Assembly (NCBI GenBank): GCA_902581005.1
Contig: CACHMT010000012.1
Coordinates: 1 to 32,771, forward strand
DNA length: 32,771 nt
Direction: 5' to 3'
Origin: an uncultured Alphaproteobacteria bacterium
Lineage (GTDB): Bacteria; Pseudomonadota; Alphaproteobacteria; Rhodobacterales; Rhodobacteraceae
The notes under the pieces were generated by a model, which ran no database searches, had not been told where the DNA came from, and saw only the letters and a list, made by a program, of their open reading frames with translations. Each line of letters begins with the position of its first letter. Position 1 is the stretch's first letter. This document shows, in pieces, positions 4,424 through 32,675 of the stretch. The position numbers and the translations under genes are program-made.

Positions 4424-4425
4424 AA

Positions 4426-5103: not shown

Positions 5104-5112
5104 GAAAATTAC

Positions 5113-8987: not shown

Positions 8988-9004
8988 ATTTAGAAAGATT
9001 AGTT

Positions 9005-11422: not shown

Positions 11423-12080
11423 GGACGTTATTTTTGCTAATGAAAAGTTCTCCTTCTTTGCAAATGGCGAACTTTATTGGCCAAGTAAAAAGACTTTGAT
11501 TATTTCTGATCTACATTTTGAAAAAGGTTCTTTTTTTTCTGAGTCAAATCAGTATATTCCACCTTTTGATACTATTGAGACGCTTAGACAACTTTCAAAT
11601 TTTATAAACAATCATCCTGTTGAAAAGATAATTTTTCTAGGCGATTTGATCCATGACAAATTTGCCTTTCAAAGGATGGCTACAAAATCAAAAGAACTTT
11701 TTTTTAAAATCCTTGAAAATATCGATTGTACCTTAACCGTTGGTAACCATGATAATATTAGGTTTCTAAAAGATATTGGATTAAACCTAACTGATAAGGT
11801 TGTTATTGATGGTATTTGTTTCAGTCATTATCCATCAATTAATCAGACATTCTCTGTTTTTGGTCACTTTCATCCAAAAGTTAAGCTTATAATTAATTCT
11901 AGAGGAATTTGGGTTGCATGCTTTGTATTAAATACAGAAAGAATATTGATGCCATCATATGGTTATTATACGGGAGGCCTCTCTATAAAAAGCACACAAA
12001 TAAAAAAGTTATTTGATGCCCAATACGAAATTTTTCCGTTAGCGAAAGAAAAAATTTATAAGCTGAGTTTAAAAAAATAA
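11412..12080 (+). CDS. pdeM: Ligase-associated metallophosphoesterase (PdeM family)
   Basis: A 222-residue calcineurin-like phosphoesterase. The two-metal motifs are in order: SDLHFEKG, GDLIHD, GNHD, then SHYP and GHFHP. The length and motif order match PdeM, the phosphoesterase member of the ligase-associated DNA damage response set; its exact substrate is not established to my knowledge. I start at the ATG at 11412, within the last codons of the helicase gene (11-base overlap) with GAAGAAG at 11402-11408; the longer TTG start at 11385 has no such site. The overlap means helicase and phosphoesterase are co-translated. The stop is 19 bases from the convergent stop of the next gene. Confidence 0.88.
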   Translation: MHYKDVIFANEKFSFFANGELYWPSKKTLIISDLHFEKGSFFSESNQYIPPFDTIETLRQLSNFINNHPVEKIIFLGDLIHDKFAFQRMATKSKELFFKILENIDCTLTVGNHDNIRFLKDIGLNLTDKVVIDGICFSHYPSINQTFSVFGHFHPKVKLIINSRGIWVACFVLNTERILMPSYGYYTGGLSIKSTQIKKLFDAQYEIFPLAKEKIYKLSLKK

Positions 12081-13874: not shown

Positions 13875-14939
13875 ATGCCCACTAAGGAAATTGACCGAAA
13901 GATTGCTGTAATTTTTGCCACTGACGTGGTGAATTACAGTAAGCATATGGAAATAGATGAAAGTGAGACTGTAAAAAGTCTTAGGTTTTATGAAAAGATA
14001 CTTAAAGGGTTGTTTAAAAAATATAATGGCAATTTATTTAATTCGGGGGGCGACTCTTTTATGGCGGAATTTGTTAGCGCTGTGGATGCGGTCGAGTGCG
14101 CTGTCGAGTTTCAAAAAAAGATAAAAACTAGTAATGCATCATCTTCTACAAAGGTTACGCTGGAATTTCGTATTGGTATCAATACGGGAGATGTAATTAA
14201 AGAAAAGGGAAATTTATTAGGTGAAGGGGTTAATATAGCAGCTCGACTAGAAGCATTAGCATTAGCAGGTGGAATTTCAGTATCTAAGAGTGTTTTTGAT
14301 TATGTAAAAGGTAAAACAAAACATCAGTTCAATGATCTTGGCATTCAAAAAGTTAAACAAAACGAATTCCATGCTTTTGATATTGTGTTAGATCCCTCCC
14401 AAAAAAGATCTCTGAAGCCTAAGCAATCAAAAAGTCTCATAACAATTCTAGCTGTAGGCATTTTAGTATTAGTTATAGGAGTGTTTTCCTTTTATTTAAA
14501 TAACGGTACGGAAATAAAGAATGCTGAACAAATTATCGCCGAGTCCGATCGGCCAATGGTTTTAGTAATGCCATTTGAAAATAGATCAGGAAATAAATCA
14601 GACGACCAGCTCAGCAGTGGTATGACTGATATAATTATCTCTTCATTAGCCAGTCATCCAAGACTTTTAGTGCAATCAAGCAGCACTAGTAATTTCATAA
14701 AGAAAAAAGGTATGTCTGATCAAGAAATAAAGAATGAATATTATGTAAACTATATCTTAAGAGGTTATAACCAAGTTTCAGGAGAAAAAATTAGAACAAC
14801 GGTAGAGCTTTCTGATGTTGTAAAGAATAAGATAGTCTGGACAGACAAGTTTGACTTTAAATTGAATGATATATTTGAAATTCAAGATACAATTTCAGAA
14901 AAAGCACTAGAAAAACTTCAAATTAAACTTACTTCATGA
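13875..14939 (+). CDS. Class III nucleotide cyclase, membrane-anchored, cut by in-frame TGA
   Basis: A 354-residue product up to the TGA at 14937. The N-terminal class III cyclase domain (about 8-175) has both metal-binding aspartates (Asp17 in FATDVVNYS, Asp60 in NSGGDSF) and GVNIAARLE. The adenine-selecting lysine four residues before the second Asp is Asn56, so the nucleotide used is uncertain. One membrane segment (about 187-208) leads to a TolB/FlgO-like domain (about 225-340, MVLVMPFENRSG). The frame continues without a break after the TGA into a TPR region, so the whole gene is probably 13875-15776 with a nonsense codon at position 355. The truncated product keeps an apparently intact cyclase domain. 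Confidence 0.8.
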   Translation: MPTKEIDRKIAVIFATDVVNYSKHMEIDESETVKSLRFYEKILKGLFKKYNGNLFNSGGDSFMAEFVSAVDAVECAVEFQKKIKTSNASSSTKVTLEFRIGINTGDVIKEKGNLLGEGVNIAARLEALALAGGISVSKSVFDYVKGKTKHQFNDLGIQKVKQNEFHAFDIVLDPSQKRSLKPKQSKSLITILAVGILVLVIGVFSFYLNNGTEIKNAEQIIAESDRPMVLVMPFENRSGNKSDDQLSSGMTDIIISSLASHPRLLVQSSSTSNFIKKKGMSDQEIKNEYYVNYILRGYNQVSGEKIRTTVELSDVVKNKIVWTDKFDFKLNDIFEIQDTISEKALEKLQIKLTS

Positions 14940-15776
14940 GAGTCCTTCGATGATGATAGAAAATATTTTAAGGACCCTGAAAACTGGCAAAGGTTTCTAA
15001 AAGCTAACCCTCTTTTCCTTTCTATGTCATTAGAGGGTGTCAAGGAAGCTGGGAAATTATTTGAGACTATTTTTGAGACAGAACCAAATAACCCTGTTGT
15101 TCTTTCTATGTATGCTTGGTATTTCACAGCCGAGGCAAATGTAGGGCTTCGCGATTGGAATATTGGAAAAGATATGATAGAAACTGCCAAGCGGGCAGTT
15201 AAATATGGCCCAGATTTATCAGATGCTAATAGCCTTCTAGCAACTTTAATGGCTAAAAATCCTAAGGAATTCCCTGAATATTCAGAAGAAGAATTGATTG
15301 AAACCGCTAGAAAATACGCGATTAATTCATCAGATTTAAATCCGACCGGCATCATAAGTATCTTATCCGCGGTAAATTCTCTTTTTATCGTAGGCCTGTA
15401 TGATCAGGCAGTTGAAAATTATGAAAAAGCTTTGAAAGTCGCTCCTCATCCGCCAGGAGATGTCAAGTTAAACTATGCTTTAACGCTTACATATTTGGAA
15501 GAGTATGAGAAAGCATATAAGTTGGCGTCTGAATTATCAGAAAACGAACAATACTTTGGAGGGTCACAAATGGGGGCTCTTGGAATTAGAGCCTTTATAG
15601 ATATGGAAGAGGGCAGGTCAAATGATGCCAAGAAAGTAGCCGAAAGGATATTAGAGATTGATAGTAGTATTAACTTTAAAAAATTAAGAAGAAGTATGAA
15701 AACATTTATAATTATGGATAGATCTTTTATGGAAAAGTTATCAACTACGCTTGAAAAAGCAGGTATAGATCCATAA
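14940..15776 (+). pseudogene. TPR-containing C-terminal part of the TGA-interrupted cyclase
   Basis: This is the same reading frame as the cyclase at 13875, beginning right after its TGA. It reads ESFDDDRKYFKDPENWQRFL and on for 278 residues of helical repeats, including NPVVLSMYAWYF and YDQAVENYEKALKVAP. The intact paralogue at 17279 and related cyclases run from the TolB-like domain through a KLT-GE-type linker into TPRs without a break, just as here if the TGA were read through. The first ATG in this part is at 15024 with no clear ribosome binding site, so separate translation is unlikely. It could also reflect a sequencing error or readthrough. Confidence 0.65.
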
Positions 15777-15890
15777 AAACTTATTCGAATGAAAATTTTA
15801 ACTGAGATCCATATTGATCTATTGCCTATCAGTAATTTTTGTATCAAGATAGTTCATATTTGGAACCCATAAAAAGGGCTTAATTCAAAA

Positions 15891-17186
15891 ATGAGTTCAT
15901 CAATTAGTAACGAAAAATCTATTAACAAGCGCTATGTTCAGGGCTTAAAAATAGCGTCAATTACTCTTTTTGGCTTATACTTAATGGGAGTATCAACAGC
16001 CATAATATTGCCTGGTTTGGAAGCACCTTTTACTAGACAGATACTCACTTTTCTTTTTTTAGGTGGCTTGTTGATATATGGCAGTGTTGCTGTCTTTGTG
16101 AACGAGTCTCGCTATCGTGTTTGTCTCTTTTTAGCGGTACTTATGCAGATGTGTTTCCCCATAGCGATTTTTTTTATTCTGAACTATGAGTATACTTTTG
16201 CTAAATTTCCAGATCTCATGGGTGGTCGTATTATGGACTACGCTTTTATCGGTGCTGCAGGCCCGATGGTAGTTTCTGTTATGTTTGCTAGATTTTATCT
16301 TTCATTATTTCTCATTTTTTATGTCTTAGCGATAACAATATTTCAAATATTTGCTATTTCCTCAACTCCAGAATTATTTTTCTCATTTAATTACAATGAA
16401 ATAGCAACAAATATTAATGCAATCAATGGTCAAGTTTTATTCAATAACTCAACGTATCTCATAGTAGTAACTGCCGGACTAATAACACTGGCATGGGTAA
16501 TTGATAGAAATCTTAAGGAAGCTACATTACAAGAAAGATCTAATAATTTATTAGGCAGATACTTTTCTCCAGAAGTTAGAGAAGAAATAGAAAGCAGTAA
16601 ACTTGATTTCAATCAAACTGCGGAAAAAGAACAAAACATCGCCGTAATGTTCACTGATATTTCTGAATTTACAAAGCTATCTGAGGGGTTGGAGCCTAAG
16701 GAGGTTCTTGAGCTACTCTCAGAGTATCAAACCAAAATGGTAGCTGCGGTATTTCAGAACGGAGGATCGGTAGATAAGTTTATTGGTGATAGCGTAATGG
16801 CGACTTTTGGAACTCCAGTATCTAGAGGTAATGATGCACAAAACGCTCTTAATTGTATAAGGCAGATGCAAATTTCTATGCGAGAATGGGAGAAGGAGCG
16901 TTCTGATAAAGGTATGCCTTCAATAAATCACAGAATTGGGGTTCATTACGGCTCTTGCTTTGTTGGCAATGTAGGTAGCGAGGATAGAGTAGAGTTTACG
17001 GTGATCGGAGATACAGTAAATGTGGCAAGTCGTATCTGTGAGGCTTGTAAAGATGTTAAATCAGATGTTTTGATTTCTGACGACGTTAAATTGCGGCTTA
17101 GTGAAAACTTACCTACCGAAGAAGTTAAGAACTTTGAAGTTAGGGGAAGGAATAAAAAAATTACTCTGCACAAACTAATTGTGTAA
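15891..17186 (+). CDS. Membrane class III adenylate cyclase with six-helix N-terminal domain
   Basis: A 431-residue protein. About six hydrophobic segments (roughly 20-40, 50-70, 77-97, 115-133, 135-157, 186-205) form a membrane sensor or anchor. A short helix (RSNNLLGRYFSPEV) then leads to a class III cyclase domain (about 248-425). Catalytic residues are complete: Asp256 (FTDISEFT), Asp300 and Lys296 (DKFIGDSVMATF), and FTVIGDTVNVASR with the Asn and Arg that act in turnover. The Lys/Thr pair is the usual one for bacterial adenylate cyclases making cAMP. It lies between two paralogous TPR cyclases on the same strand, with a 114-base spacer upstream and 92 bases downstream. Confidence 0.88.
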   Translation: MSSSISNEKSINKRYVQGLKIASITLFGLYLMGVSTAIILPGLEAPFTRQILTFLFLGGLLIYGSVAVFVNESRYRVCLFLAVLMQMCFPIAIFFILNYEYTFAKFPDLMGGRIMDYAFIGAAGPMVVSVMFARFYLSLFLIFYVLAITIFQIFAISSTPELFFSFNYNEIATNINAINGQVLFNNSTYLIVVTAGLITLAWVIDRNLKEATLQERSNNLLGRYFSPEVREEIESSKLDFNQTAEKEQNIAVMFTDISEFTKLSEGLEPKEVLELLSEYQTKMVAAVFQNGGSVDKFIGDSVMATFGTPVSRGNDAQNALNCIRQMQISMREWEKERSDKGMPSINHRIGVHYGSCFVGNVGSEDRVEFTVIGDTVNVASRICEACKDVKSDVLISDDVKLRLSENLPTEEVKNFEVRGRNKKITLHKLIV

Positions 17187-17278
17187 ATTTATATTATATT
17201 CAAAAAAAGAGAGTGATATTTTTTTCGATAGAATTAAACTAAAATTCTGAAAACTTAGAGAATAATATTTAAAAGTTC

Positions 17279-19048
17279 ATGAATGCCAAAGTAAATAGAA
17301 AACTTACGACCATTCTCGCCACTGATTGTGTTGGTTTTAGTCGTCTCATGGAAGCAAACGAAGAGCTAACTCTTCAAAATTTAAAGGCATGCAGATCTAT
17401 AATTGATCCAATAATAAAAGATTTTGGGGGTAGAATCTTTCATACAGCAGGGGACTCAGTTATTGCAGAATTTAATAGTCCTGTTGAATGTGTAAATGCC
17501 GCAATAGAATTTCAAAAAAGTATTTCAGAGAGAAATAATGCTTTGGATAATACATCGTCACTTGTTTTTAGAGTAGGAATACATTTAGATGATGTAATTA
17601 TAGAGGGGGATAACATATATGGGTCTGGTGTTAATATAGCCTCAAGGCTCGAGACTGAATGCTCCCCTGGACAAATCTTGCTTTCCAGAACCGTAAAAGA
17701 ACAAGTTTCAAAAAAAATTGAATTTGTAGTTAACTCTCTTGGGTTTAGAGCGCTAAAAAATATTTCTGACTCATTTGAAGTGTTTCAAGTTGCACATGAG
17801 TCACCTGAAAGTATAGCTAGACAGAATATAAATAACCAATCAAGCATAATTAAGAAATATAAGCCTAAATTGCTTGTAATTCCCTTTACAAATACCGGTA
17901 AAGACGAGGATAGTGAATATCTAGTAGATGGGATTGTAGAGGATTTAATTACTGAATTCTCTATGATTAAAGAGTTAGACATTTGTTCTAGACAAAGCGC
18001 CTTTGAATTTAAAGGAAAGGGAAGCCAATTTTCTGATTTTGCAAAGAATCTTAATGCAAATTTTGTTGTAGCAGGTAGCATACGATCTTCTGGCAAAAGA
18101 GTAAGAATATCAGTGGAATTAAACGACGTAACAGAAAATAAAGTCGTTTGGAGCCAAAAATATGATCGGGTGATTGAGGACATTTTTGATGTTCAAGATG
18201 AAATTGTAAGAAAAATTACAATTGCATTGGTAGGAGAAATAGAAATTTCAAGCCTGAATCGATCCAAAAGAAAGCCTGCTGAAAATATGACTTCATATGA
18301 GTATTTAATAAGAGCCAAGCAATTGCATCATAAGTTTACCAAAGAAGCCAATAGAGAAGCCTTAGATTTTGTTAGTAAGGCTATTGAAGCCGATCAAACA
18401 AATGCGCAAGCACTAGCTTGGAAGGCCTGCATTATGGGTCAAGCAAGAGCGAGACAGTATGTTGAAATTAAAGACCAAGAAGCTTATTACGAAGAAATGT
18501 CAGGTTACGTTCAAAGAGCAGTGGACTTAGATGAAAATGATTTCGAATGTAATAGGATGCTTTGTTTTGCCTATCTCACTCAGCATAAATACGATAAGGC
18601 AGAAGAGTATGGGAAACGGGCCTTTGACCTAAACCCAAATGATCCCAGAGTCTCCTCAGGTTATGGCGAGGTTCTTGTAAGAGTTGGAAGAAGCGGAGAA
18701 GGCATTGAATTATTAAAAAAAGCACTCGAGCTTGACCCGGTTCCAATGGGTCAAATAAATTCTGATAAGCGCCTAGCGGACCTTTTATTAGGTTTTTTTA
18801 TGGATAAGAATTATGTCGAGTGTTTAGAAATAGGCCAGAAAATTCAAAATATTGATTTTAGATCATGGCTATTGCTTTTAGAGGCGCATAAAAAAGTTAA
18901 AACACATCCAAGTGGATCTGAAAACCTTCTATCTTTGGTTGCTAAATTTAGAGATACCGACTTTGTAATGGAAATTGATAGGTTTCATATTCAGGATGAA
19001 AAAATAAATCAGAGCCTAACAAACCTTGCTACCGAGTTGCTGATTTGA
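17279..19048 (+). CDS. Soluble class III cyclase with TolB/FlgO-like and TPR domains
   Basis: A 589-residue protein, full length for its architecture: class III cyclase (about 5-180), TolB/FlgO-like domain (about 198-325, LLVIPFTNTGKDEDSEYL), and TPRs (about 345-560, for example AEEYGKRAFDLNPNDPRV). The metal ligands Asp16 (LATDCVGFS) and Asp59 (TAGDSVIAEF) are present, as is GVNIASRLE. The adenine-selecting lysine position is His55, so cAMP synthesis is not certain. No membrane segment separates the cyclase and TolB-like parts, unlike the paralogue at 13875. The last TPR units probably sense a partner or ligand; this is inference. The gene ends with TGA. Confidence 0.85.
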   Translation: MNAKVNRKLTTILATDCVGFSRLMEANEELTLQNLKACRSIIDPIIKDFGGRIFHTAGDSVIAEFNSPVECVNAAIEFQKSISERNNALDNTSSLVFRVGIHLDDVIIEGDNIYGSGVNIASRLETECSPGQILLSRTVKEQVSKKIEFVVNSLGFRALKNISDSFEVFQVAHESPESIARQNINNQSSIIKKYKPKLLVIPFTNTGKDEDSEYLVDGIVEDLITEFSMIKELDICSRQSAFEFKGKGSQFSDFAKNLNANFVVAGSIRSSGKRVRISVELNDVTENKVVWSQKYDRVIEDIFDVQDEIVRKITIALVGEIEISSLNRSKRKPAENMTSYEYLIRAKQLHHKFTKEANREALDFVSKAIEADQTNAQALAWKACIMGQARARQYVEIKDQEAYYEEMSGYVQRAVDLDENDFECNRMLCFAYLTQHKYDKAEEYGKRAFDLNPNDPRVSSGYGEVLVRVGRSGEGIELLKKALELDPVPMGQINSDKRLADLLLGFFMDKNYVECLEIGQKIQNIDFRSWLLLLEAHKKVKTHPSGSENLLSLVAKFRDTDFVMEIDRFHIQDEKINQSLTNLATELLI

Positions 19049-20735: not shown

Positions 20736-22775
20736 CTATCTGAGCTCAGCAGCAGTATTCCCACCATCTACTGTTAAAACGTGACCAGTTGTTCTTTCGA
20801 GCTTCGCTAGTGCAATAAAGGCATCCGCTACGTGAACAGCTTCTACTTCTTTTTTAAGTGAATTGCCTGACATATATTCTTTTTCCGACAAATCTCTAGC
20901 TTTTGCTCGTGTCTTTATAAACTCCGATGTTAGTAGTCCAGATCTTATACGATCGGCATTAATGCCGTTAACGCGAATACCTGATGAGCCAAGCTCTAAT
21001 GCCAGTTGTCTCATTAAGAACATAGTCGTAGATTTAGGCATACCGTACGCACCCATTCCTTTGCCAGGATTAACTGCTTGCTTTGAAATGTTAAATAAAA
21101 TTTGGCCCCCTCTGCCCTGTATCTCAAGTATTTTTGCAGCCTCAATTGAAAAAGATTGATGCGCAAAAAAATTAAGCTCAAAAGATTCTCTTAGTTTCTT
21201 ATCTGGTAGATTAAGTAGCTGTCCGCTTGGAGCGTTGCCAGCATTTGAAACTAATATATCTAGGCCTCCAAAATTCCAAATTGCAGCTTCCATTGCTTTT
21301 TTAGCACTATTTTTGTCAGTAATGTCACAGCAAAATGATTTATCCCATTGTGTCAGTTTTGATAATGCAATGTCTAACAGCTTTTGATTATTATCAACTA
21401 ACAGGATATTTGCGCCCAATCGAGAAAATGCTTTAGCTGTTTCAAGTCCAATCGTTCCAGCTCCACCTGTGACAATAACTACTTTTCCTTCAAAATGAGG
21501 AGGGGTACCTTTCCCTAATTTTGCTTGTTCTAGTGACCAATACTCACAATCAAACATATCTTTTTCTTTGATAGGGTAAAATCCTCCAAATTTCTCACTA
21601 ATGATACGAATATGTAAGTTTTGTTCAGCCAGGTCAGCTATAGCAGATGCTTCTTTAGCATTTCTGCCCACCCCAATAACTCCAATACTTCGTAACCACC
21701 CATGTTTTGGATCTGCAGTCAGAATTGATTTCTTTTCATCTGCCCTTTTCGACTGTCTATTAAAATATTTTATATACCTACTAGAGAAACCCTCAATATG
21801 TTTCTTTAACACCTTTTCATCTTGATAGTCCGCTATATTTTTGATGTGAAGCGGTGCCCCTTTAGTTCTGATAACGTGATCCGGAGAGGCCATGCCTCTA
21901 TTTTCTAGCTTTGATAGGTTTTTATCATTCAGTAAATTTAATACTTGTTTGCTATTTCTTAGATCAATTATTGGCATCGGATCGTTTTTCCCTAACGATA
22001 TGTTTGCGATCAAACCTCTTATTTTGGGGAGCATATATAAATTTTTTGTGGGATGTCTTTTACCAAGCTCTAATTCTTTTTTTAAGCTAAAGAATGCAGC
22101 TACTTTATTTGTTTGCTCAATTACTCTCCGATAACTTTCTTCAGCTGTTTTTCCAAAGGTAAAATGACCATGATTTAGCAAAAGCATACCTTTTACTGAT
22201 GGGTTTTTTTCATATATTTCATAAGCTTTTTTTGCTAATTTAAAGCCAGGCATTATGTATGGAACTATAGCTAGAGAGTCGCCAAATATTTTATTACATA
22301 TCTTCTTTGCATCTGGTAAATTAGCCAAAATTAAAAATGGTGTAGAGTGAGTATGGTCCACGAATTTATGAGGCAAAAATGCATGAAGTAACGTTTCAAC
22401 AGATGGATTGGGTGAGCCACTATCAATAAGGTTATTTCTCTGGATATTAACCATATCCTCATCAGTCATTTTTTTTAACTTCCGAAACTCTCGTAGTGGA
22501 CTCAACCGTACACCTGGTAATCCTGGGGCTTCAATAGTATCAAGGTTCCAGCCTGAACCCTTCACATGAAGAATCTCTTCATCTTTTCCAAAAATATTTT
22601 TTCTAGTTACTTTAACGGATGTATTTCCACCACCGTGCATTATTAGGTCAGGGACTAAACCAATTAGTCTTGAGGTATAAACTCTTTCTCCAAGATCTTT
22701 ATCTGCAACTAATGAACCAGCTTTCCTTCTCCATCCATTCGCATCAATTTTACTATAATTATTTTTTACAAACAT
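20736..22775 (-). CDS. Class II aldolase fused to short-chain dehydrogenase
   Basis: A 679-residue two-domain enzyme. The N-terminal class II aldolase (about 1-330) has GGGNTSVK (48-55), catalytic Glu127 (PSVETLLH) and zinc ligands His141, His143 (DHTHS) and His202 (NHGHFTFG). The C-terminal SDR (about 428-679) has TGGAGTIG (436-443), NAG, Ser564 and Tyr577-x3-Lys581; Asp461 after the second strand suggests NAD(H). The architecture matches rhizobial rhamnulose-1-phosphate aldolase/lactaldehyde dehydrogenase. Here it follows mtnK and mtnA by 11 bases, so methylthioribulose-1-phosphate or 5-deoxyribulose-1-phosphate is the more likely substrate, giving DHAP plus an aldehyde for the SDR. That substrate is inference; the two domains are clear. 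Confidence 0.88.
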   Translation of the reverse strand: MFVKNNYSKIDANGWRRKAGSLVADKDLGERVYTSRLIGLVPDLIMHGGGNTSVKVTRKNIFGKDEEILHVKGSGWNLDTIEAPGLPGVRLSPLREFRKLKKMTDEDMVNIQRNNLIDSGSPNPSVETLLHAFLPHKFVDHTHSTPFLILANLPDAKKICNKIFGDSLAIVPYIMPGFKLAKKAYEIYEKNPSVKGMLLLNHGHFTFGKTAEESYRRVIEQTNKVAAFFSLKKELELGKRHPTKNLYMLPKIRGLIANISLGKNDPMPIIDLRNSKQVLNLLNDKNLSKLENRGMASPDHVIRTKGAPLHIKNIADYQDEKVLKKHIEGFSSRYIKYFNRQSKRADEKKSILTADPKHGWLRSIGVIGVGRNAKEASAIADLAEQNLHIRIISEKFGGFYPIKEKDMFDCEYWSLEQAKLGKGTPPHFEGKVVIVTGGAGTIGLETAKAFSRLGANILLVDNNQKLLDIALSKLTQWDKSFCCDITDKNSAKKAMEAAIWNFGGLDILVSNAGNAPSGQLLNLPDKKLRESFELNFFAHQSFSIEAAKILEIQGRGGQILFNISKQAVNPGKGMGAYGMPKSTTMFLMRQLALELGSSGIRVNGINADRIRSGLLTSEFIKTRAKARDLSEKEYMSGNSLKKEVEAVHVADAFIALAKLERTTGHVLTVDGGNTAAELR

Positions 22776-22786
22776 TTTTTTATCCT

Positions 22787-23872
22787 TTATTTGCTGGGAA
22801 AAAGGTCTTCTAGTTTTTGGGTGTTTGGATTGCAGACACCATTTTCTGTAATTAAGCCAGTAATCAAACTGGAAGGTGTAATATCGAAGGCAGGATTAAA
22901 TCCAAAAGTCCCTTCTGGCGTTACTTTAACACTGTTTATCTCATTATTTTTATCGTTTCCTTTCACATAAGAAACTTCTTCCTCATTTCTTTCTTCTATG
23001 GGGATTTCTTTTAGTCCATCGTAGACAGTCCAATCTATTGTTGGGGAGGGCAAAGCCACATAAAACGGCACCTCATTGTCTTTTGCAGCTAAAGCTTTTA
23101 AATATGTGCCAATTTTATTGCAAACATCACCTTTGGCTGTAGTTCGGTCAGTTCCTACAATTACCATATCAACCTGACCAGTTTGCATCAGAAACCCACC
23201 AGTATTATCTACGATGTATTCATGATCAATACCATGACTATTTAGCTCCCATGAAGTAAGCGCTCCTTGATTTCTTGGCCGTGTTTCATCTACCCATATT
23301 TTAACAGGAATCCCTTTATCATATGCCTGATACATAGGACTAGTTGCAGTACCCCAGTCAACCGTTGCCAGCCAACCCGCATTGCAGTGGGTAAGTATAT
23401 TTACGGGATCACCTTTTTTCTGATTAGAAATTTTTGATATTATGTCTAAGCCAAACTCACCAATTTTCCGATTTATTTCAACATCTTCATCTGAGATCTC
23501 CAGAGCTAACTCCATAGCTTTTTTTGTTCTATCAGTTGTGGCCACTTGCGACAAATAATCTTTACATCGATTGAGAGCCCATCTTAGATTTATTGCCGTT
23601 GGTCTTGTCGCGTTAAGAACTTCCCAGGCATTATCTAGTGCTTTGTCTGTGCAGTCCTTCTGCATTTGTTTTGCAATGCCGAAAGCAGCTGTGGCCCCAA
23701 TAAGTGGTGCTCCCCTTACCGCCATATCTTTAATTGCAATTCTGAAATCCTCTAAACTATCTAAATCGATAACTTTAAATGAGTAAGGCAACTCTCTTTG
23801 ATCGATTATTTTTACAGTATTCGAGTCTTTTTCATACCAAATAGATCTATAGTGTTTGTTGTTTACCTTCAT
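22787..23872 (-). CDS. mtnA: S-methyl-5-thioribose-1-phosphate isomerase
   Basis: A 361-residue member of the eIF2B-related aldose-1-phosphate isomerase family. It converts methylthioribose-1-phosphate to methylthioribulose-1-phosphate, and family members also accept 5-deoxyribose-1-phosphate. The phosphate-binding RGAPLIGATAAFG begins at residue 53. The catalytic Cys163 (THCNAGWLAT) and Asp241 (GTDRTTAKGDVCNKIGTY) are both present, separating it from regulatory eIF2B homologues. The ATG overlaps the mtnK stop by four bases (ATGA), so the two are translationally coupled. The acidic segment EERNEEEVSY is a modest insertion near the C-terminus. Confidence 0.93.
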   Translation of the reverse strand: MKVNNKHYRSIWYEKDSNTVKIIDQRELPYSFKVIDLDSLEDFRIAIKDMAVRGAPLIGATAAFGIAKQMQKDCTDKALDNAWEVLNATRPTAINLRWALNRCKDYLSQVATTDRTKKAMELALEISDEDVEINRKIGEFGLDIISKISNQKKGDPVNILTHCNAGWLATVDWGTATSPMYQAYDKGIPVKIWVDETRPRNQGALTSWELNSHGIDHEYIVDNTGGFLMQTGQVDMVIVGTDRTTAKGDVCNKIGTYLKALAAKDNEVPFYVALPSPTIDWTVYDGLKEIPIEERNEEEVSYVKGNDKNNEINSVKVTPEGTFGFNPAFDITPSSLITGLITENGVCNPNTQKLEDLFPSK

Positions 23873-25125
23873 AAAACATCCTTCGAATTATAATCTTGAG
23901 CCAACGTTATTAATTTTGTGACAGTATCAATATTTTGAGTCTTTAAAATTAAGTCTCTTCCCATAAGAAGATTTCTAGCCTCCAACTTTGCGCGCAGTTT
24001 AGTATCCTCTATTAACTCAAAATCAGCATTATGAGCCAAAGATAAACATCTACGATGCATCTCTATTCCACAAAATCCTACGGCGTCTGACCAGATGGAG
24101 TTTAAAAAGTTTTCTAAAGCGAATGATGATGAGTGGCCTTGATCTTCAAACAAAGTTTTTGGAAATAATATTCCATTTCTCGCACTATTCCATAATGCAC
24201 TAAATTCAGCTTGAAAATGTTCAACCGTTTCTTTCATTATAGTAGATATCCATGATTGGTAATCTGATTGCTCTGAAGTCTTTCTGTGCCCTTCTTGGCT
24301 AAAATAAGCCATCAAAAAATTTGCTAAAAGCATACCTAAGTCGAAACCCATAGGGCCATAAAATGCGAATTCAGGATCAATCACCCTAGTTTGATCATTT
24401 GTACACATAATTGAACCAGAATGTAAATCACCATGGCACATAGTTTCTGTATTAGAAGCGAATTTTCTAAGCATGTTTTGAACACAACTTTTCATTTTAA
24501 TATCGTTTCTGAGAATATTAATTATTTTTTCTAATCCCTCTGTATTACTATTCATTTCAGCATTAAAATACGGATCTGTAAAAACAAGGTTTTCTGTGAT
24601 TGCCATTAGTTCAATATTTTTTTCAAATAAAGATACATCGATTTTTTTGGTTTTGGTCTCCATATATAAATCGGATCCTTTGAAAGCAATTCTCGCACAA
24701 TGCAACCCTAATACCTCTGAAAGTCCATCAACCTTCTCGCCTTCGATTAGCTTATTCCTAAGAATTTTGTGATTCTCAAGATATTCCATAGCTATTAGAC
24801 CTTGATCACTATCGAAGTATAAAACTTTAGGGACCACCCCTGGGTCTCTCTCCTCTTGCCTAATTAATGCATTATATTCAAAAAAAGCTCTTTCAAGAGT
24901 CAACGGCCAACTGTCACCCACTAAACGAACATACGGTAAAGCCTGTTTTATAATCACCTTACCAAGGTCGCCTGTAACAATAAAAACCAAATTAAGGTTG
25001 CCGTCTCCAACCTCAGCAACATCCCAGGAATTGGGATCTGTTCCCACTTTTCCGGCAATTTCTTTTATTTTATATAGCCTTTCAGGAAGACTTTCAGGTG
25101 TTAACGCAAGGTAGTTATCTGGCAT
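23869..25125 (-). CDS. mtnK: S-methyl-5-thioribose kinase
   Basis: A 418-residue kinase of the choline-kinase-like fold that phosphorylates the anomeric C1 hydroxyl of methylthioribose using ATP. Motifs are GDGNLNLVF (nucleotide loop, 40-48), VIIKQ (Lys60), CHGDLHSGSIM (catalytic Asp233) and VIDPEFAFYGPMGFDLG (metal-binding Asp250). I place the start at 25125, which has GGAGAAAAA just upstream on the minus strand and gives the usual length; the longer frame to 25203 adds a Phe-rich stretch with no ribosome binding site. It is first in the leftward operon mtnK-mtnA-aldolase/SDR and divergent from the ABC importer genes. Activity on 5-deoxyribose is possible and cannot be read from motifs. Confidence 0.93.
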   Translation of the reverse strand: MPDNYLALTPESLPERLYKIKEIAGKVGTDPNSWDVAEVGDGNLNLVFIVTGDLGKVIIKQALPYVRLVGDSWPLTLERAFFEYNALIRQEERDPGVVPKVLYFDSDQGLIAMEYLENHKILRNKLIEGEKVDGLSEVLGLHCARIAFKGSDLYMETKTKKIDVSLFEKNIELMAITENLVFTDPYFNAEMNSNTEGLEKIINILRNDIKMKSCVQNMLRKFASNTETMCHGDLHSGSIMCTNDQTRVIDPEFAFYGPMGFDLGMLLANFLMAYFSQEGHRKTSEQSDYQSWISTIMKETVEHFQAEFSALWNSARNGILFPKTLFEDQGHSSSFALENFLNSIWSDAVGFCGIEMHRRCLSLAHNADFELIEDTKLRAKLEARNLLMGRDLILKTQNIDTVTKLITLAQDYNSKDVL

Positions 25126-25160
25126 TTTTTCTCCGATATTAGCTTCAATAAATTTAAAAT

Positions 25161-25187
25161 TTGTAAAGAAAGTAAAGCATCTATAAT
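25161..25187 (+). promoter_or_regulatory. Candidate sigma70 promoter of the ABC importer operon
   Basis: A perfect -10 hexamer TATAAT lies at 25182-25187 in the 102-base spacer between mtnK and the ABC ATPase gene. TTGTAA at 25161-25166 is a possible -35 box but the gap is only 15 bases. Transcription from about 25194 would leave a leader of about 34 bases before the ATG at 25228. Both operons read outward from this spacer, so shared control is plausible; no operator is obvious. Confidence 0.4.
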
Positions 25188-25227
25188 CTAAAAAGTGAAT
25201 CATTATTTACGTTGGGTAATACTATTT

Positions 25228-26727
25228 ATGAATAAAATTGTTTGTGAAATATATAATTTAGAAAAGGCCTTTGGCCCCAATAAGGTTTTAAGAGGTATAG
25301 ATCTAAAACTTTATTCTGGCGAAATAACTGTATTAATGGGAGCAAATGGAGCAGGAAAATCAACACTTGTAAAGATTCTGTGTGGCGTCCATCAACCTGA
25401 CTCTGGAAAAATAAGTCTATTTGGTAGTCCATTTACACCTGAAAAACCAGCAGACGCTTTTAGAACAGGAGTGGTAACAGTTCATCAGTCGATAAATGAT
25501 GGAGTTATCCCTGATTTGGATGTCGCTTCTAACTTAATGCTGGATCAGCTCAATCAAAAGGATTTTGGTTTTTTTGTGAAAGATAGTCTCTTAAGAAAAC
25601 GTGCTAGAAAAATTGCGCAAAATATGAAACTAGAGATTAATATGAAAACTCAAGTGAGTGAACTAGGTATTGCTGACAGGCAACTCATAGCAATAGCTCG
25701 TGCTATGACAAGAGATCCAAAGGTTTTAATTCTCGATGAACCTACATCATCTTTATCTGCGAAAGAAGCTGAAAGACTATTCACCACTTTGGATACTCTT
25801 AAATCTCAAGGCGTTGCTATTTTGTATATTTCACATAGAATGTCTGATATCAGAAGAATTGCTGATCGGATTGTTTCAATGAGAGATGGTACAATTTCTG
25901 GCGTGTTTGATAAAAAGCCATTGAATTTTGAGGGGGCAGTTACTGCAATGCTTGGCCATAAAATGACAGATGTATCAATTAAAATTCCTAAGGAGGGAAA
26001 AAAGGTAATTGAACTTGAAAATCTGGTTCTGTCTGAAGGTTCAAGAGCAATCAATCTATCGATATTTGAAAACCAAGTTGTTGCTATAACAGGCTTGATT
26101 GGAAGTGGTAAAAGCAAGTTGGCTTCAATACTCTTTGGAGCATCAAACCCACAAGGTGGATCAATTAAACTTGGAAATAAAAACTACAACCCGTTGAGTA
26201 CCCAAGAAGCAATCAAAAAAGGTGTGCATATGTGCTCAAAAGATAGAGCCAGTAATGGCGTGATTAAAACGTTTAATATTGAAAAAAATATTTCTCTGCC
26301 TTTTTTATCCGACTATAGCGTGGGCTCTTTGTTAAGATTCTCCAGATTAAAAGAAGTAGCAAGAAAAAAAATTGATGAATTAGGTATAGTCTGCCAATCT
26401 GAGGATGATGATATCGATACTCTTTCTGGAGGAAATCAACAAAAAGTAATGGTTGGAAGGTGGTTGATTAAAGATAGCGAGTTATTGATATTAGACGAAC
26501 CTTTTCAAGGCGTCGATATTCAAGCAAGGAGAGACATAGGTTCATTTATTAGAAAAACTGCCAAAGGAAGGGGGACCATTGTGTTTGTTGCCGAACTGGA
26601 CGAAGCTCTAGAAATTGCGGATAGAGTAATTGTAATGAACAACAAGGCAATTTTAGGAGATCATTTGAATAACAATATTAATTTAAACAAAGTACTATCC
26701 GAGATTACTGGTGAGGTTAAGTTGTAA
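25228..26727 (+). CDS. Ribose-type ABC transporter, ATP-binding protein (RbsA-like)
   Basis: A 499-residue tandem ATPase of the carbohydrate uptake (CUT2) type. The first half has Walker A GANGAGKST (about 38-46) and Walker B VLILDEPTSSLS but a weak signature (LGIADRQ). The second has GLIGSGKS, a canonical signature LSGGNQQKV and LLILDEPFQGVD. This uneven pair is normal for RbsA-type proteins. The start at 25228 is preferred over GTG 25195 because homologues begin close to the first beta strand. With the permease and binding protein it makes a complete importer. The substrate is inferred from the divergent mtnK-mtnA genes as methylthioribose or 5-deoxyribose rather than ribose; no ribokinase is present. 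Confidence 0.92.
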   Translation: MNKIVCEIYNLEKAFGPNKVLRGIDLKLYSGEITVLMGANGAGKSTLVKILCGVHQPDSGKISLFGSPFTPEKPADAFRTGVVTVHQSINDGVIPDLDVASNLMLDQLNQKDFGFFVKDSLLRKRARKIAQNMKLEINMKTQVSELGIADRQLIAIARAMTRDPKVLILDEPTSSLSAKEAERLFTTLDTLKSQGVAILYISHRMSDIRRIADRIVSMRDGTISGVFDKKPLNFEGAVTAMLGHKMTDVSIKIPKEGKKVIELENLVLSEGSRAINLSIFENQVVAITGLIGSGKSKLASILFGASNPQGGSIKLGNKNYNPLSTQEAIKKGVHMCSKDRASNGVIKTFNIEKNISLPFLSDYSVGSLLRFSRLKEVARKKIDELGIVCQSEDDDIDTLSGGNQQKVMVGRWLIKDSELLILDEPFQGVDIQARRDIGSFIRKTAKGRGTIVFVAELDEALEIADRVIVMNNKAILGDHLNNNINLNKVLSEITGEVKL

Positions 26728-26809
26728 TCCGTTAAATTTTCAAATTCTCTGTGGTGAATAAAGAATAACAAGGTAAACTAAGATTTGTATCTATTTAGGT
26801 AAATATTAA

Positions 26810-27820
26810 ATGTCCAATGATTTAAATGTTTTTATTATAAAATATGGTTTTTTAGTCCTTCTTGTTGGGCTAATAATTTTTTTTTCAATTTTCGCAAGTG
26901 GATTTGCCGGACCAAGATCAGCAGTATTCATTTTTCAATCAGTAGCCATAACAGGAATATTAGCTTTAGGCGTAACTTGCACGCTCGTAGTTGATGGCTT
27001 TGATTTATCAATAGGCTCTGTAGCCACTTCTTCTCTAATGATGTCTGCATACTTTCTTGTTATATTAGAAACCAGTGCCTTGACTGCAATAATTGCTTGT
27101 TTGCTTATGGGTGCATTTGTTGGCCTAGTAAATGGTATTCTTATCGTAAGAATGAAAGTTCCTGATCTCCTTGCGACATTGGGAATGATGTTTTTGCTGA
27201 TTGGATTGCAACGAGTTCCTACAGAAGGAAGATCAATCGCAACTGGCATGAGATTGCCTTCAGGTGAGGTAGCAGATGGCGTTTTTCCTGAAAGTTTTCT
27301 GTGGATTGGTCGTCACAGATTTGACTTATTTTTGGAAAAATTGATCCCAGTACCGGTTGTTATTTTTATTTTAGTCGCCCTATTTATTTGGATATTTCTT
27401 GAATTAACGCGACATGGACGTTTGATGTATGCCATTGGTTCAAATGAAAGAGCTGCTGCTCTTTCTGGAACTAATACTAATTTTTATAAAGTTCTTGCTT
27501 ATGTAATATCGGGAGTAACGGCATCAATAGGTGGCTTGCTTCTTGCTGCAAGATTAGGACGGGGTGATATAGCTTCTGGAAATAACTTGCTATTAGATAG
27601 CGTTGCTGCTGCGCTCATAGGCTTTGCGGTTCTCGGTGCTGCGAAACCTAATGCGCTTGGCACTGCAATAGGTGCTCTTTTCGTTGGGATCTTACTGCAA
27701 GGTTTGACAATGATGAATGCTCCCTATTACACTCAAGACTTTGTAAAAGGTGGAGTGCTTGTAATTGCACTAGTTTTTACATTTGCTCTAACTTCAAGAT
27801 CTCGTCAAGGAGGTCACTGA
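26810..27820 (+). CDS. Ribose-type ABC transporter permease (RbsC-like)
   Basis: A 336-residue inner-membrane permease of the CUT2 type with eight to ten hydrophobic segments. Family hallmarks are LALGVTCTLVVDGFDLSIGS, GLVNGILIVRMKVPDLLATL, YAIGSNERAAALSGTNT (the loop contacting the ATPase) and SGVTASIGGLLLAARLG. It would form the channel as a homodimer, taking sugar from the binding protein. It lies 82 bases after the ATPase gene with no clear terminator between, and 30 bases before the binding-protein gene, so all are probably one transcript. It ends with TGA. Confidence 0.92.
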   Translation: MSNDLNVFIIKYGFLVLLVGLIIFFSIFASGFAGPRSAVFIFQSVAITGILALGVTCTLVVDGFDLSIGSVATSSLMMSAYFLVILETSALTAIIACLLMGAFVGLVNGILIVRMKVPDLLATLGMMFLLIGLQRVPTEGRSIATGMRLPSGEVADGVFPESFLWIGRHRFDLFLEKLIPVPVVIFILVALFIWIFLELTRHGRLMYAIGSNERAAALSGTNTNFYKVLAYVISGVTASIGGLLLAARLGRGDIASGNNLLLDSVAAALIGFAVLGAAKPNALGTAIGALFVGILLQGLTMMNAPYYTQDFVKGGVLVIALVFTFALTSRSRQGGH

Positions 27821-27850
27821 TAATAAGTAAATTTAAAATGGGAGGAATTT

Positions 27851-28897
27851 ATGAATTTATTTAAAAAAATGACATCATCAATTTTAGCAACTGTGATGAT
27901 GCTAACATTACTTACTACGGGAGTGTTTGCAGCTATGCCTGCACCGCTAGATAACCCAAGCAAGGTTAAAATAGCTTTAGTGCGATATTTAAGCACTGGC
28001 GACTTTTTTCAAGCCTATTTGTCCGGTGTAGAAACGCAAGCAAAAGCTCTTGGTGTCGATTTACGGGTATTTGATAGTCGTCAAGATGCAGCTCTTCAGG
28101 CTGATATGGTAGACCAAGCTATAGCGTTAGGAGTTGACGGTATTATCATCCAACATGGTCTGACCGAGTCAATGCAGGCTGCTGCACAACGGGCCGTAGA
28201 TGCAGGAATAAAAGTAGTTGCTTTTGATGTTAATGTAGAAAATCCAAAAATTCCACAGGTTGAGCAATCTGATTATATGCTGGGTAAATTGGCTTTAGAT
28301 CAGGCAATTAAGGATAATGGTAATACTTTTAAAGCAGGTTATGTATATGTTCCTGGAATTGCACCGCTTGATCGTAGAGATAAAGCATGGCAGGAAATTA
28401 AAGCAGCTAATCCTGGCATCGAAGAAGCCGCAGTATTTGGAACATTAGATAATCCTATTGCGAATTCTAATGCCAACCAAGCAAGATCTGTTCTTCAGGC
28501 TAACAGAGATATCACCGTTATGTTTGCTCCTTATGACGAGTTTGCAAAGGGAGTAAAAATCGCGGTTGACGAAGCTGGGCTTACTGATCAGATTGATATT
28601 TATTCAGCAGACGTCTCAACAGCCGATATCTCTGCTATGAGAGAGCCTGGTTCCGCTTGGGTTGCAACGGTTGCAACGAATCCTGCAGTGGTAGGTGAGG
28701 TTTGTGTGAGATCTCTAGCAATAATGTTAACTGGTGGTGACCCGGGGAGAAGTGTTATTGTTCCACCAACTCTAATCACCCAAAAATTTCTTAATGACAA
28801 TGACATTAAGAATATGGATGACCTTGGAGCAAAAATGCCACAATTTCAGCATGCAGATGTTGCCATGACAGGTTGGATGCCGTTACCAAAAAGGTAG
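27851..28897 (+). CDS. Periplasmic sugar-binding protein of the ABC importer (RbsB-like)
   Basis: A 348-residue type I periplasmic binding protein. A Sec signal peptide spans about residues 1-28 (KKMTSSILATVMMLTLL, then TTGVFA) with likely cleavage before AMPAP. The mature part has the two-lobe pattern: VKIALVRYLSTGDFFQAYL, then QAIALGVDGIIIQHG, VVAFDVNV and AGYVYVPG. It would deliver sugar to the permease. GGGAGG at 27840-27845 is the strongest Shine-Dalgarno sequence in the operon, fitting the excess of binding protein usual in importers. A stem-loop follows the stop at 28910. The ligand is inferred as methylthioribose or 5-deoxyribose. Confidence 0.92.
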   Translation: MNLFKKMTSSILATVMMLTLLTTGVFAAMPAPLDNPSKVKIALVRYLSTGDFFQAYLSGVETQAKALGVDLRVFDSRQDAALQADMVDQAIALGVDGIIIQHGLTESMQAAAQRAVDAGIKVVAFDVNVENPKIPQVEQSDYMLGKLALDQAIKDNGNTFKAGYVYVPGIAPLDRRDKAWQEIKAANPGIEEAAVFGTLDNPIANSNANQARSVLQANRDITVMFAPYDEFAKGVKIAVDEAGLTDQIDIYSADVSTADISAMREPGSAWVATVATNPAVVGEVCVRSLAIMLTGGDPGRSVIVPPTLITQKFLNDNDIKNMDDLGAKMPQFQHADVAMTGWMPLPKR

Positions 28898-28909
28898 TAA
28901 ATTTTTAAT

Positions 28910-28936
28910 GTTGAGGTGGCTGAATGTCACCTCAAC
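28910..28936 (+). terminator. Stem-loop between binding protein and mutarotase genes
   Basis: GTTGAGGTG and CACCTCAAC form a perfect 9-base stem that extends to 11 pairs with G-U and C-G pairs, closing a TGAAT loop. No run of T follows directly (TAACAGTCC comes next), so it is a poor intrinsic terminator. Its place just after the binding-protein gene suits an mRNA-stabilising or partial-termination element that lets the binding protein be made in excess over FucU; this is inference. Confidence 0.5.
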
Positions 28937-28954
28937 TAACAGTCCTATATTTTT

Positions 28955-29407
28955 ATGCTTCACAGAATTCCAAATACATTGACACCGGATCTTTTGTACA
29001 TTTTAAGCAAAATGGGCCATGGAGATGAGCTAGTAATTGCAGATGCAAATTTTCCAGCAGCATCTACTTCTGCATTCTGTAAGATTAAAGACCCAGTATA
29101 TCTTCCAAGTTTAAATGCTCCGAAATTGATAAGTGATATTTGTAAATTATTACCTATCGATGGATTCGGTGACTATGGAGTGGCAAGAATGGAAATTGAT
29201 GGCATGCCTAATGAAGAGGGAGATGTTCACATTGCCGTCAGGAAAGTTTTAGAGAAAGTTATGATCAATAAGAAAGTTAAATTTGATATAATTTCTATTG
29301 AACGGCAGAAATTTTATTCTCACGCAAAAAATTCTTTTGCCGTAGTATCAACTGGTGAGAGTAGGGCGTTTGGATGCTTTATCTTGAGGAAAGGCGTGGT
29401 TTTCTAA
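28955..29407 (+). CDS. RbsD/FucU-family sugar mutarotase (FucU-like)
   Basis: A 150-residue RbsD/FucU protein. The family motif GHGDELVIADANFPA (residues 21-35) carries the conserved His22 and Asp30, and ERQKFYSHAK and STGESRAFGCFILRKG complete the C-terminal signature, which is more like FucU than RbsD. FucU speeds exchange between alpha and beta sugar anomers; RbsD exchanges pyranose and furanose forms. It is last in the importer operon. A sugar with no free 5-hydroxyl cannot form a pyranose, so anomer exchange ahead of the C1 kinase MtnK is the logical role, although this is inference. Confidence 0.85.
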   Translation: MLHRIPNTLTPDLLYILSKMGHGDELVIADANFPAASTSAFCKIKDPVYLPSLNAPKLISDICKLLPIDGFGDYGVARMEIDGMPNEEGDVHIAVRKVLEKVMINKKVKFDIISIERQKFYSHAKNSFAVVSTGESRAFGCFILRKGVVF

Positions 29408-31157: not shown

Positions 31158-32675
31158 TCATTTTATCCGATCCAAAATCTCTTCAATTTTGGTTTCCAGA
31201 GCATCCAGCCTATCCGCTATCCTTTCTGGAACATTCTTTATTTTATGAGAAGATACTTTTATATTATTTCCCTGTCCAATTTTATTTAAAACCGAAAATA
31301 CTTTAATTTCTCTTTTTACCCCTTTCATCGAAATGCTATTTAGTTGCTCTACTTCTATCAAGTCTTGAGCGTGTGCGTATGTTTCATAAGACATCAATAT
31401 CCCCCCAGGCTGTGCTGATGCCTCTAAGCGTTGAGCAACATTTACTTCACTACCAATAATTGTATAAGTAAGCCGTTGGTCGCTTCCAAAGTTACCTACG
31501 TTACAATAACCAGTATTCATGCCCATCCTAATCACGAATGGATCTGCAAAACCTTGTTTTTGCCATTTATCTTGTAAATCAGATATTCTATCGCGCATTT
31601 TCAATGCCATTTTAACGCATGCTCTTGCATCTTCTTGTTCCCCCTTACTGTCTGGGTCACCAAAAAATACCATCATTGCGTCTCCTATATATTTATCAAT
31701 TGTTGCACCGTGATCGAGCGCAATATCAGTCATCTCTGAAAAATATTCGTTAAGATACCTTGTTAGATCTTCCGGTTGAAGACCTTCCGAGGTAGATGTA
31801 AAATTTGAGATATCACTAAAAAAAATAGTTAATTTACGTCTTTTTGTAGTAATTCCAGTATCAAATTCACCAGAAAAAATTGCTTCGTGGACTTGCGGAG
31901 GAAGGTATTTAGCCAAATTTACAGATAACCTCTCGGTTTCCTCTTTTTTTCGTTCAGCATCCTCTAAAACAGCTTTCATGAGACCTTCATGTGCTTTAAG
32001 TCTTGTATTTGCGATTATCTCTTTCTGATCCCTTAAAGTCTCATTTGGTAAAAATTTGAGGATAAAAGCTCCACTTGACCAACCATCATCAATATCTTCA
32101 CTTTTTTCATCAAGTTTATAGTCAATATCGAACAAATCGCCAAAAAGGTTAATAAGAAAAATATGATAATTTCCAATTCCAAATTTCCAATTTTTCAATG
32201 GCTGAGCGAGAACAAATGCCATTTCCCATGTATCTTCTGATATACGTTTGAAACCTATATCACCTTTTAGCTTATTGCTGCGAAATTGCGCCATATAATC
32301 ATTTGTAATTTTTTGTAGCCCAGGCAAAGTTTCATCTATAAAATTGAAATTTCTAGTTCTATTGTTTGAAGACACCGATCTCATCGAGTATGTTTTTCTA
32401 GAATTATCTATGTACTTACCAAAATCAGGTAGCATAGATAACATTAAAAGCCCTTGCTCTATACCAATTGCATATAATGCGTCAGTACCAAATCTACTTC
32501 TTACCTCCTCAAATATTTTTAGTCTAATGGAACTCGGGTAATTTTTTTTTGGATCAATCTCACTTATTCCATTTTGCTTTAAAACTTTTTCACCAAGTGG
32601 ACCAAGCCCCGCTAGTACTTTTATTGTTGACGCAAGCGAAGCACCAGGAATTGTAGCTTTAATTTCACTAGACAT
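31158..32675 (-). CDS. Class III adenylate cyclase with unrecognised N-terminal sensor domain
   Basis: A 505-residue soluble protein with no membrane segment. Residues 1 to about 210 form a globular domain beginning with a helix and NGISEIDPKKNYPSS; I do not recognise it, though the pattern recalls bacterial sensory domains of the V4R/heme-NO-binding size class. A helical linker (about 225-255, AHEGLMKAVLEDAERKKEET) joins it to the class III cyclase (about 280-465). Asp288 (FFSDISNFT), Lys328 and Asp332 (IDKYIGDAMMVFF), and YTIIGSEVNVAQRLE are present, the usual adenylate cyclase set. A short coiled coil (RIADRLDALETKIEEI) ends the protein. It is convergent with the amidase gene. Confidence 0.85.
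   Translation of the reverse strand: MSSEIKATIPGASLASTIKVLAGLGPLGEKVLKQNGISEIDPKKNYPSSIRLKIFEEVRSRFGTDALYAIGIEQGLLMLSMLPDFGKYIDNSRKTYSMRSVSSNNRTRNFNFIDETLPGLQKITNDYMAQFRSNKLKGDIGFKRISEDTWEMAFVLAQPLKNWKFGIGNYHIFLINLFGDLFDIDYKLDEKSEDIDDGWSSGAFILKFLPNETLRDQKEIIANTRLKAHEGLMKAVLEDAERKKEETERLSVNLAKYLPPQVHEAIFSGEFDTGITTKRRKLTIFFSDISNFTSTSEGLQPEDLTRYLNEYFSEMTDIALDHGATIDKYIGDAMMVFFGDPDSKGEQEDARACVKMALKMRDRISDLQDKWQKQGFADPFVIRMGMNTGYCNVGNFGSDQRLTYTIIGSEVNVAQRLEASAQPGGILMSYETYAHAQDLIEVEQLNSISMKGVKREIKVFSVLNKIGQGNNIKVSSHKIKNVPERIADRLDALETKIEEILDRIK

Follow-up and report, generated by a model that had tools for sequence, protein, structure and literature searches.

What does a bacterium import through a sugar transporter whose genes face those of methylthioribose metabolism, and what becomes of the imported compound? 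This question is raised by a divergent locus at positions 20,736 to 29,407 of contig CACHMT010000012.1 (assembly GCA_902581005.1), from an uncultured member of the Rhodobacteraceae that is probably marine, as read from its relatives. The stretch of DNA analysed here, 32,771 nucleotides long, is hereafter called the window; it represents contig 12 of 68 in a 1.53-Mb assembly that is 72.7% complete, and absences from the genome reported below refer to that assembly. In this locus mtnK, mtnA and a gene encoding a class II aldolase fused to a short-chain dehydrogenase (SDR) face a CUT2 importer and a FucU mutarotase. With a probability that we put at roughly 77%, sequence comparisons suggest that the locus serves the uptake of a ribose substituted at C5 and not bound in a nucleoside; 5-methylthioribose is the most likely candidate, 5-deoxyribose is probably taken up as well, and the sugar would feed the dihydroxyacetone phosphate (DHAP) shunt.

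Ten proteins of the window, the seven of the locus and three others, were scanned against NCBIfam and Pfam models. On the minus strand, mtnK (23,869–25,125; 418 residues from the ATG at 25,125) encodes a 5-methylthioribose kinase (TIGR01767, 460 bits for a cut-off of 275) and mtnA (22,787–23,872) a 5-methylthioribose-1-phosphate isomerase (TIGR00512, 411 bits for a cut-off of 279). Both pass equivalog cut-offs and both have solved relatives, 2pyw and 2olc in the case of MtnK. The two genes overlap by 4 bases, and a gap of 11 bases separates mtnA from the gene of the 679-residue aldolase-SDR fusion (20,736–22,775, minus strand; NF006192, 768 bits for a cut-off of 639), predicted to act as a 5-methylthioribulose-1-phosphate / 5-deoxyribulose-1-phosphate aldolase and aldehyde oxidoreductase. 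Across a spacer of 102 bases between two ATG codons (25,126–25,227), the plus strand carries a complete CUT2 importer: an RbsA-like ATPase with two fused ATP-binding cassette (ABC) domains, starting with the ATG at 25,228 (25,228–26,727), an RbsC-like permease of the BPD_transp_2 family (26,810–27,820) and a periplasmic binding protein of the Peripla_BP_4 family (27,851–28,897). The last gene (28,955–29,407, plus strand) encodes a sugar mutarotase of the FucU/RbsD family (Pfam, 102.6 bits for a cut-off of 25), which scores below the cut-off of the NCBIfam L-fucose mutarotase model (71 versus 141 bits). The first-pass annotation of this DNA had described the same genes, families and spacer, and its assignment of the enzymes to the DHAP shunt agrees with the scores of MtnK and MtnA and with the class II aldolase domain of the fusion. 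It had also stated that mtnB, mtnC, mtnD and a phosphorylase or nucleosidase for 5'-methylthioadenosine (MTA) are absent from the locus, and the model scans found none of them among the seven locus proteins.

Is this neighbourhood more than an accident of one genome? In a sample of 149 family genomes, among them that of the window, the binding protein has a match in 17, of which 15 are close (73–100% identity) and two weak (38–40%), while MtnK is present in 21. All 15 genomes with a close binding protein also have MtnK (hypergeometric P ∼4e-16, relatedness being ignored), and in 14 of them the importer and mtnK are divergent neighbours. A wider search returned at least 563 relatives of the binding protein; the best 80 loci, which lean to close relatives, were kept, gene presence being called with bit-score thresholds set by hand, and at least three of them are probably identical to contigs of the family sample. 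In 73 of these 80 loci mtnK is divergent from the ATPase gene and no more than 600 bp away from it. In the remaining seven, at most 187 bases lie between the first gene seen and the edge of the contig, so that the link is kept wherever the upstream side is present (73 of 73 loci). The other genes are found less regularly, mtnA in 72 of the 80 loci, the fusion in 40 and FucU in 16. The neighbourhood is not due to chance: the locus is real and conserved in close relatives. The system is nevertheless patchy, as in a class-wide sample of 385 genomes a match at an E-value of 1e-60 or better was found in five, including the window's own. No relative was found on viral contigs scanned with patterns drawn from the single binding protein.

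We then considered which sugar is imported. By sequence, the best match of the binding protein among solved structures is 4ry8 (228 bits, versus 126 for the next and 72 for the first ribose binder). A Foldseek search with the AlphaFold2 model of the binding protein (mean predicted local distance difference test score of 87) placed the same entry first, at E = 2.4e-32, followed by the next protein at 6.0e-27 and by ribose binders at about 3e-19; 4ry8 and the binding protein share a template-modelling score of about 0.8 and 37% identity. This entry is listed as the 5-methylthioribose transporter solute binding protein TLET_1677 of Thermotoga lettingae, and was presumably solved with 5-methylthioribose bound. 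The Arg, Asn and Gln of the Streptococcus agalactiae RbsB that we take to be ribose-pocket residues align with V127, Y228 and T276 here and with Leu, Trp and Thr in 4ry8. V127 and T276 do not vary among the 36 close sequences aligned, which have Tyr or Phe at position 228; in a wider set of 20 sequences this position is aromatic throughout. The replacement of the ribose-pocket residues speaks against ribose as cargo. The ATPase, permease and binding protein all belong to the ribose/CUT2 superfamily, as would be expected of a plain ribose importer that adjoins the mtn genes by chance. However, the binding protein scores 44 bits with the RbsB model, whose cut-off is 337, and the linkage to mtnK holds wherever the upstream side of the locus can be seen. 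We rejected ribose import on the RbsB cut-off and the pocket positions, and consider a chance neighbour of this kind very unlikely. The pocket evidence fails to separate methylthioribose from 5-deoxyribose, and the cargo is likely one or the other. The kinase, isomerase and aldolase of B. thuringiensis together take both sugars (PMC6079011; here and below, what is said of a cited paper refers to the accessible part of its text). In the S. meliloti literature searched, there is no mention of methylthio terms or of the guessed tags SMb2061x and SMb2062x.

The same family models and the fusion bear on a second sugar class. A 6-deoxyhexose locus, for rhamnose or fucose, would combine a rhamnulose-1-phosphate aldolase fused to a lactaldehyde dehydrogenase (RhaEW, PMC3870299), FucU for fucose and a rhamnose-type CUT2 importer; the fusion does share its domain layout with RhaEW, and the mutarotase belongs to the FucU/RbsD family. 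But the fusion passes neither rhamnulose model (TIGR02632, 400 bits for a cut-off of 568; NF006189, 358 for 634), and the binding protein is far below the RhaS cut-off (32 bits for 342). Plasmid fusions annotated as rhamnulose enzymes share about 28% identity with that of the window, and mtn-adjacent fusions 43% or more. In a tree of 50 proteins (44 mtn-linked, three rha-linked and three further ones, one of the 40 locus fusions having been dropped by a filter), the mtn-linked and rha-linked fusions are split with 100/100 support, the rha side consisting of only three rows and long branches being flagged. To judge from this tree, the fusion is of a lineage apart from the RhaEW proteins compared. 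Three rha loci were opened: rhaI lies beside the fusion in all three, rhaS in two and a rhamnulokinase gene in one, whereas no rha isomerase, rha kinase or RhaS is found among the ten window proteins scanned. On the model cut-offs, the missing rha genes and the fusion tree, rhamnose or fucose catabolism was discarded, and we regard it as highly improbable.

Does the fusion then act on the product of MtnA? The model that it passes, NF006192, is named only bifunctional aldolase/short-chain dehydrogenase. In the 80 loci the third step comes in two forms, as the fusion in 40 and as a stand-alone FucA-like aldolase in 16 (two of which, in L120 and L134, were scanned against the family models), and never as both. 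That a stand-alone aldolase replaces the fusion supports assigning the third step to the aldolase half. In RhaEW the aldehyde is oxidised with NAD+, and no reductase activity is seen with NADH (PMC3870299); moreover, aldol cleavages of this type are unfavourable, with equilibrium constants near 1e-4 (PMC6079011); these two points suggest an oxidative last step here as well. Nine aldehyde dehydrogenase matches in the window's own genome neither support nor exclude the SDR step. No description of the fusion as part of the DHAP shunt was found in the literature searched, which covers few subscription papers. The three further proteins of the tree, from Ruegeria, from R. leguminosarum and one unannotated, fall on the mtn side. 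In the first case (Ruegeria sp. THAF33, L174), mtnA is immediately followed by a fusion of the same kind (∼61% identity), with no mtnK or importer in the fetched stretch; this arrangement looks suited to sugar that the cell itself produces.

The gene identities, the linkage, the homology of the binding protein and the separate lineage of the fusion are observed; in the route that we propose, the cargo, the activity of each enzyme and the way in which the SDR step runs are inferred. The binding protein would capture the sugar in the periplasm for import by the ATPase and permease, and the mutarotase may equilibrate the anomers of the sugar. MtnK would phosphorylate C1 and MtnA would then give the ribulose-1-phosphate, which the aldolase half of the fusion would cleave to DHAP and an aldehyde. 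The SDR half would probably oxidise this aldehyde to acetate or methylthioacetate, which, as in RhaEW, would draw the unfavourable aldol cleavage towards its products.

Several observations weigh against this proposal. The first-pass annotation had made it depend on the two operons being linked in related genomes, which is the case in the large majority of both samples but not in genome G108, where the importer and mtnK-mtnA lie on separate contigs, each far from the contig's ends. Six of the 21 family genomes with MtnK are without a close importer, and 24 of the 80 loci are without either aldolase type, some of these being cut short. The R. leguminosarum fusion (L175, 39% identity) is on the mtn side of the tree with no mtn gene beside it, its neighbours being other sugar-transport genes and glycerol-3-phosphate dehydrogenase genes; with the two other further proteins, it indicates that this part of the tree extends beyond mtn loci. 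With an identity of only about 28% between the fusion and RhaEW, which way the SDR step runs is a guess. Finally, among the opened loci in which the binding protein is at most 57% identical, L026–L030 and genome G014 lack mtnK-mtnA beside the importer, although L031, L082 and L083 have both genes there and L072 has them ∼8 kb off. This weaker linkage indicates that the wider binding-protein family is not tied to this sugar. In L027 and L029, the genes of binding proteins of ∼55–57% identity adjoin genes for SfnB-type sulfur acquisition and for an LLM-class oxidoreductase, with no mtn genes in the stretch fetched; to judge from these neighbours, the wider family may bind other sulfur compounds.

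Is the compound taken up as free sugar or as nucleoside? MtnP yields the 1-phosphate directly, and in a cell with MtnP, MtnK is needed for the free sugar only. As MtnK accompanies the importer and MtnP makes MtnK dispensable for sugar produced inside the cell, this pairing makes the strongest case that free sugar is taken up. The MTA phosphorylase (MTAP) cut-off is passed by 132 of the 149 family genomes, compared with the 21 that have MtnK, and a strong match lies elsewhere in 12 of the 14 other family genomes with a close importer. The first-pass annotation had deduced the use of free sugar from the lack of an MTA phosphorylase or nucleosidase; that argument is weak, because most importer genomes have MTAP elsewhere and the window's own assembly is incomplete, whereas the conclusion itself is backed by the pairing of MtnK with the importer. 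In this assembly the only phosphorylase-superfamily gene found is of DeoD type. Exogenous MTA and 5'-deoxyadenosine are among the growth substrates reported for the DHAP shunt in the accessible parts of the literature, and could be thought to be the cargo of the importer. With MtnP, however, their product would already be phosphorylated and MtnK would be idle; a nucleosidase would leave MtnK a role, but the one gene of the phosphorylase superfamily found in the assembly is the DeoD-type one, and the top structural match of the binding protein is a methylthioribose transporter protein. Import of a nucleoside in place of the free sugar thus seems to us to have little to recommend it.

A related question is whether free methylthioribose would serve as a source of sulfur and methionine rather than of carbon, through a branch beyond the DHAP shunt. 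The loci of relatives give this some ground: next to the importer or mtnA, 31 of the 80 encode a RuBisCO-like protein and 28 a split transketolase (e.g., L098, L099, L107 and L159, among L086–L165), and two plasmid-borne relatives of the binding protein are the neighbours of SfnB-type genes described above. The shunt also serves sulfur salvage in R. rubrum and R. palustris (PMC10986504). However, neither a match to acireductone dioxygenase (ARD, the product of mtnD) nor a RuBisCO-like gene was found in the window's assembly, ARD is above its cut-off in none of the 149 family genomes (weak matches below it being seen in seven), and the shunt of E. coli returns no significant sulfur to methionine (PMC10986504). 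Only two class II aldolase-domain genes were found in the assembly, and the second encodes a generic PRK07044-type protein that scores 42 bits with the mtnB model (cut-off 137); mtnC is not among the seven genes of the locus, no genome-wide search for it having been made. Full methionine salvage was set aside on the lack of mtnD in the assembly and, above cut-off, in the family sample. We judge a purpose in sulfur salvage rather unlikely, while giving it some weight, and the locus may serve either carbon supply or sulfur recovery. In the relatives that carry them, the RuBisCO-like protein could act as an isomerase that turns 5-deoxyribulose-1-phosphate into 1-deoxyxylulose 5-phosphate, on which the transketolase could then act; no description of such a branch was found in the literature searched.

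How does the locus compare with known systems? An importer dedicated to these sugars had been put forward as the novel element, which does not stand, because methylthioribose importers and 5-deoxyribose transporter clusters are already on record. The methylthioribose ABC importer mtrACB has been predicted in Bacillus cereus and Enterobacteria (PMC3228920), and resembles the present one in that an RbsA/RbsC/RbsB-like importer lies beside mtnK and mtnA. However, mtrACB goes with mtnBCDE and with MetJ or S-box control (PMC3228920), whereas a DHAP-shunt-type aldolase and no mtnBCD are found in the locus here, and in the Klebsiella copy (L031) the binding protein is ∼31% identical and mtnK follows its gene in place of facing that of the ATPase. 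For MtrA (YfnA) of B. subtilis, the import of methylthioribose is reported to have been authenticated by experiment (PMC5743806), and PMC4239095 and PMC9502454 mention further transporter genes for this sugar. The structure 4ry8, the best solved match by sequence and by fold, comes from a distant thermophile. For 5-deoxyribose, four drawn clusters include sugar transporter genes, uptake of the exogenous sugar has been suggested, and the Denitrovibrio cluster includes a fucose mutarotase homologue (PMC6079011). The drdK-drdI-drdA genes of that work likewise encode a kinase, an isomerase and a class II aldolase, but the drd aldolase is fuculose-1-phosphate-aldolase-like, in contrast to the aldolase-SDR fusion and alphaproteobacterial CUT2 importer found here. 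With the mtnK-mtnA-ald2 operon of E. coli, which supports growth on exogenous 5-deoxyribose, the locus has in common the three enzyme steps and a linked transporter gene; that operon has a putative permease in place of an ABC system, and the accessible parts of PMC12632272 and PMC10986504 do not speak of ald2 as a fusion. RhaEW shares the two-domain layout of the fusion and differs from it in its low identity, its place on the other side of the tree and the rha genes around it. The parts are already known, and their combination with a fused aldolase-dehydrogenase is a variant.

The spacers of relatives point to a regulatory element that the window does not have. The palindrome TGTCAA-N5/6-TTGACA is present, with at least 11 of 12 matches, in the mtnK-ATPase spacer of 68 of 73 relatives and in 0.2% of shuffled spacers, the motif having been chosen after the spacers were viewed and the shuffles having kept only single-base composition. 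Its halves are equal to the –35 consensus, so that it may represent an operator, a pair of divergent promoters, or the two combined. In the window spacer 8 of 12 positions match, which is the chance level. A regulator with a sugar-binding domain is seen in 61 of the 80 loci (the one scanned, in L064, is under the cut-offs of both models matched), whereas no regulator with a Sugar-bind domain was found in the window's assembly. L086, the nearest to the window in the fusion tree, keeps the palindrome, and no such regulator is seen in its locus. The window copy may have lost the control linked to the palindrome. In E. coli the repressor of the DHAP shunt is MtnR, of the DeoR family (PMC12632272).

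Other parts of the window hold genes of different kinds. Three adjacent genes at 3,527–6,429 resemble pieces of glutamate synthase (an amidotransferase, a middle gene and a GltB-like gene), all below NCBIfam cut-offs; the middle gene is probably GXGXG-like, and the layout of the trio recalls N-methylglutamate synthase. They are followed at 6,430–12,080 by the ligase-associated DNA damage cluster, a known set in which ligase, exonuclease, DEXH helicase and PdeM each exceed their NCBIfam cut-off. The gene at 12,100–13,776 has a linalool dehydratase/isomerase domain (PF18566, 55 bits for a cut-off of 26) and no NCBIfam match. Several putative class III nucleotide cyclases lie at 13,875–19,048 and 31,158–32,675, from reading of the sequence alone.

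Taken together, these data lead us to propose, tentatively and with somewhat more doubt than confidence, an import-fed oxidative DHAP shunt that acts on sugar excreted by other cells, in which a fusion clade distinct from RhaEW would yield DHAP and acetate or methylthioacetate, and to which many relatives would add a second branch through the RuBisCO-like protein and transketolase. If this is true, there would be a function for the fusions that NCBI groups under the bare name of bifunctional aldolase/short-chain dehydrogenase, and rhizobial binding proteins now annotated as generic sugar binders would gain a ligand. The conserved importer could also be used as a marker gene in metagenomes. Methylthioribose and 5-deoxyribose, by-products of S-adenosylmethionine chemistry, would then be a carbon source exchanged among Alphaproteobacteria.

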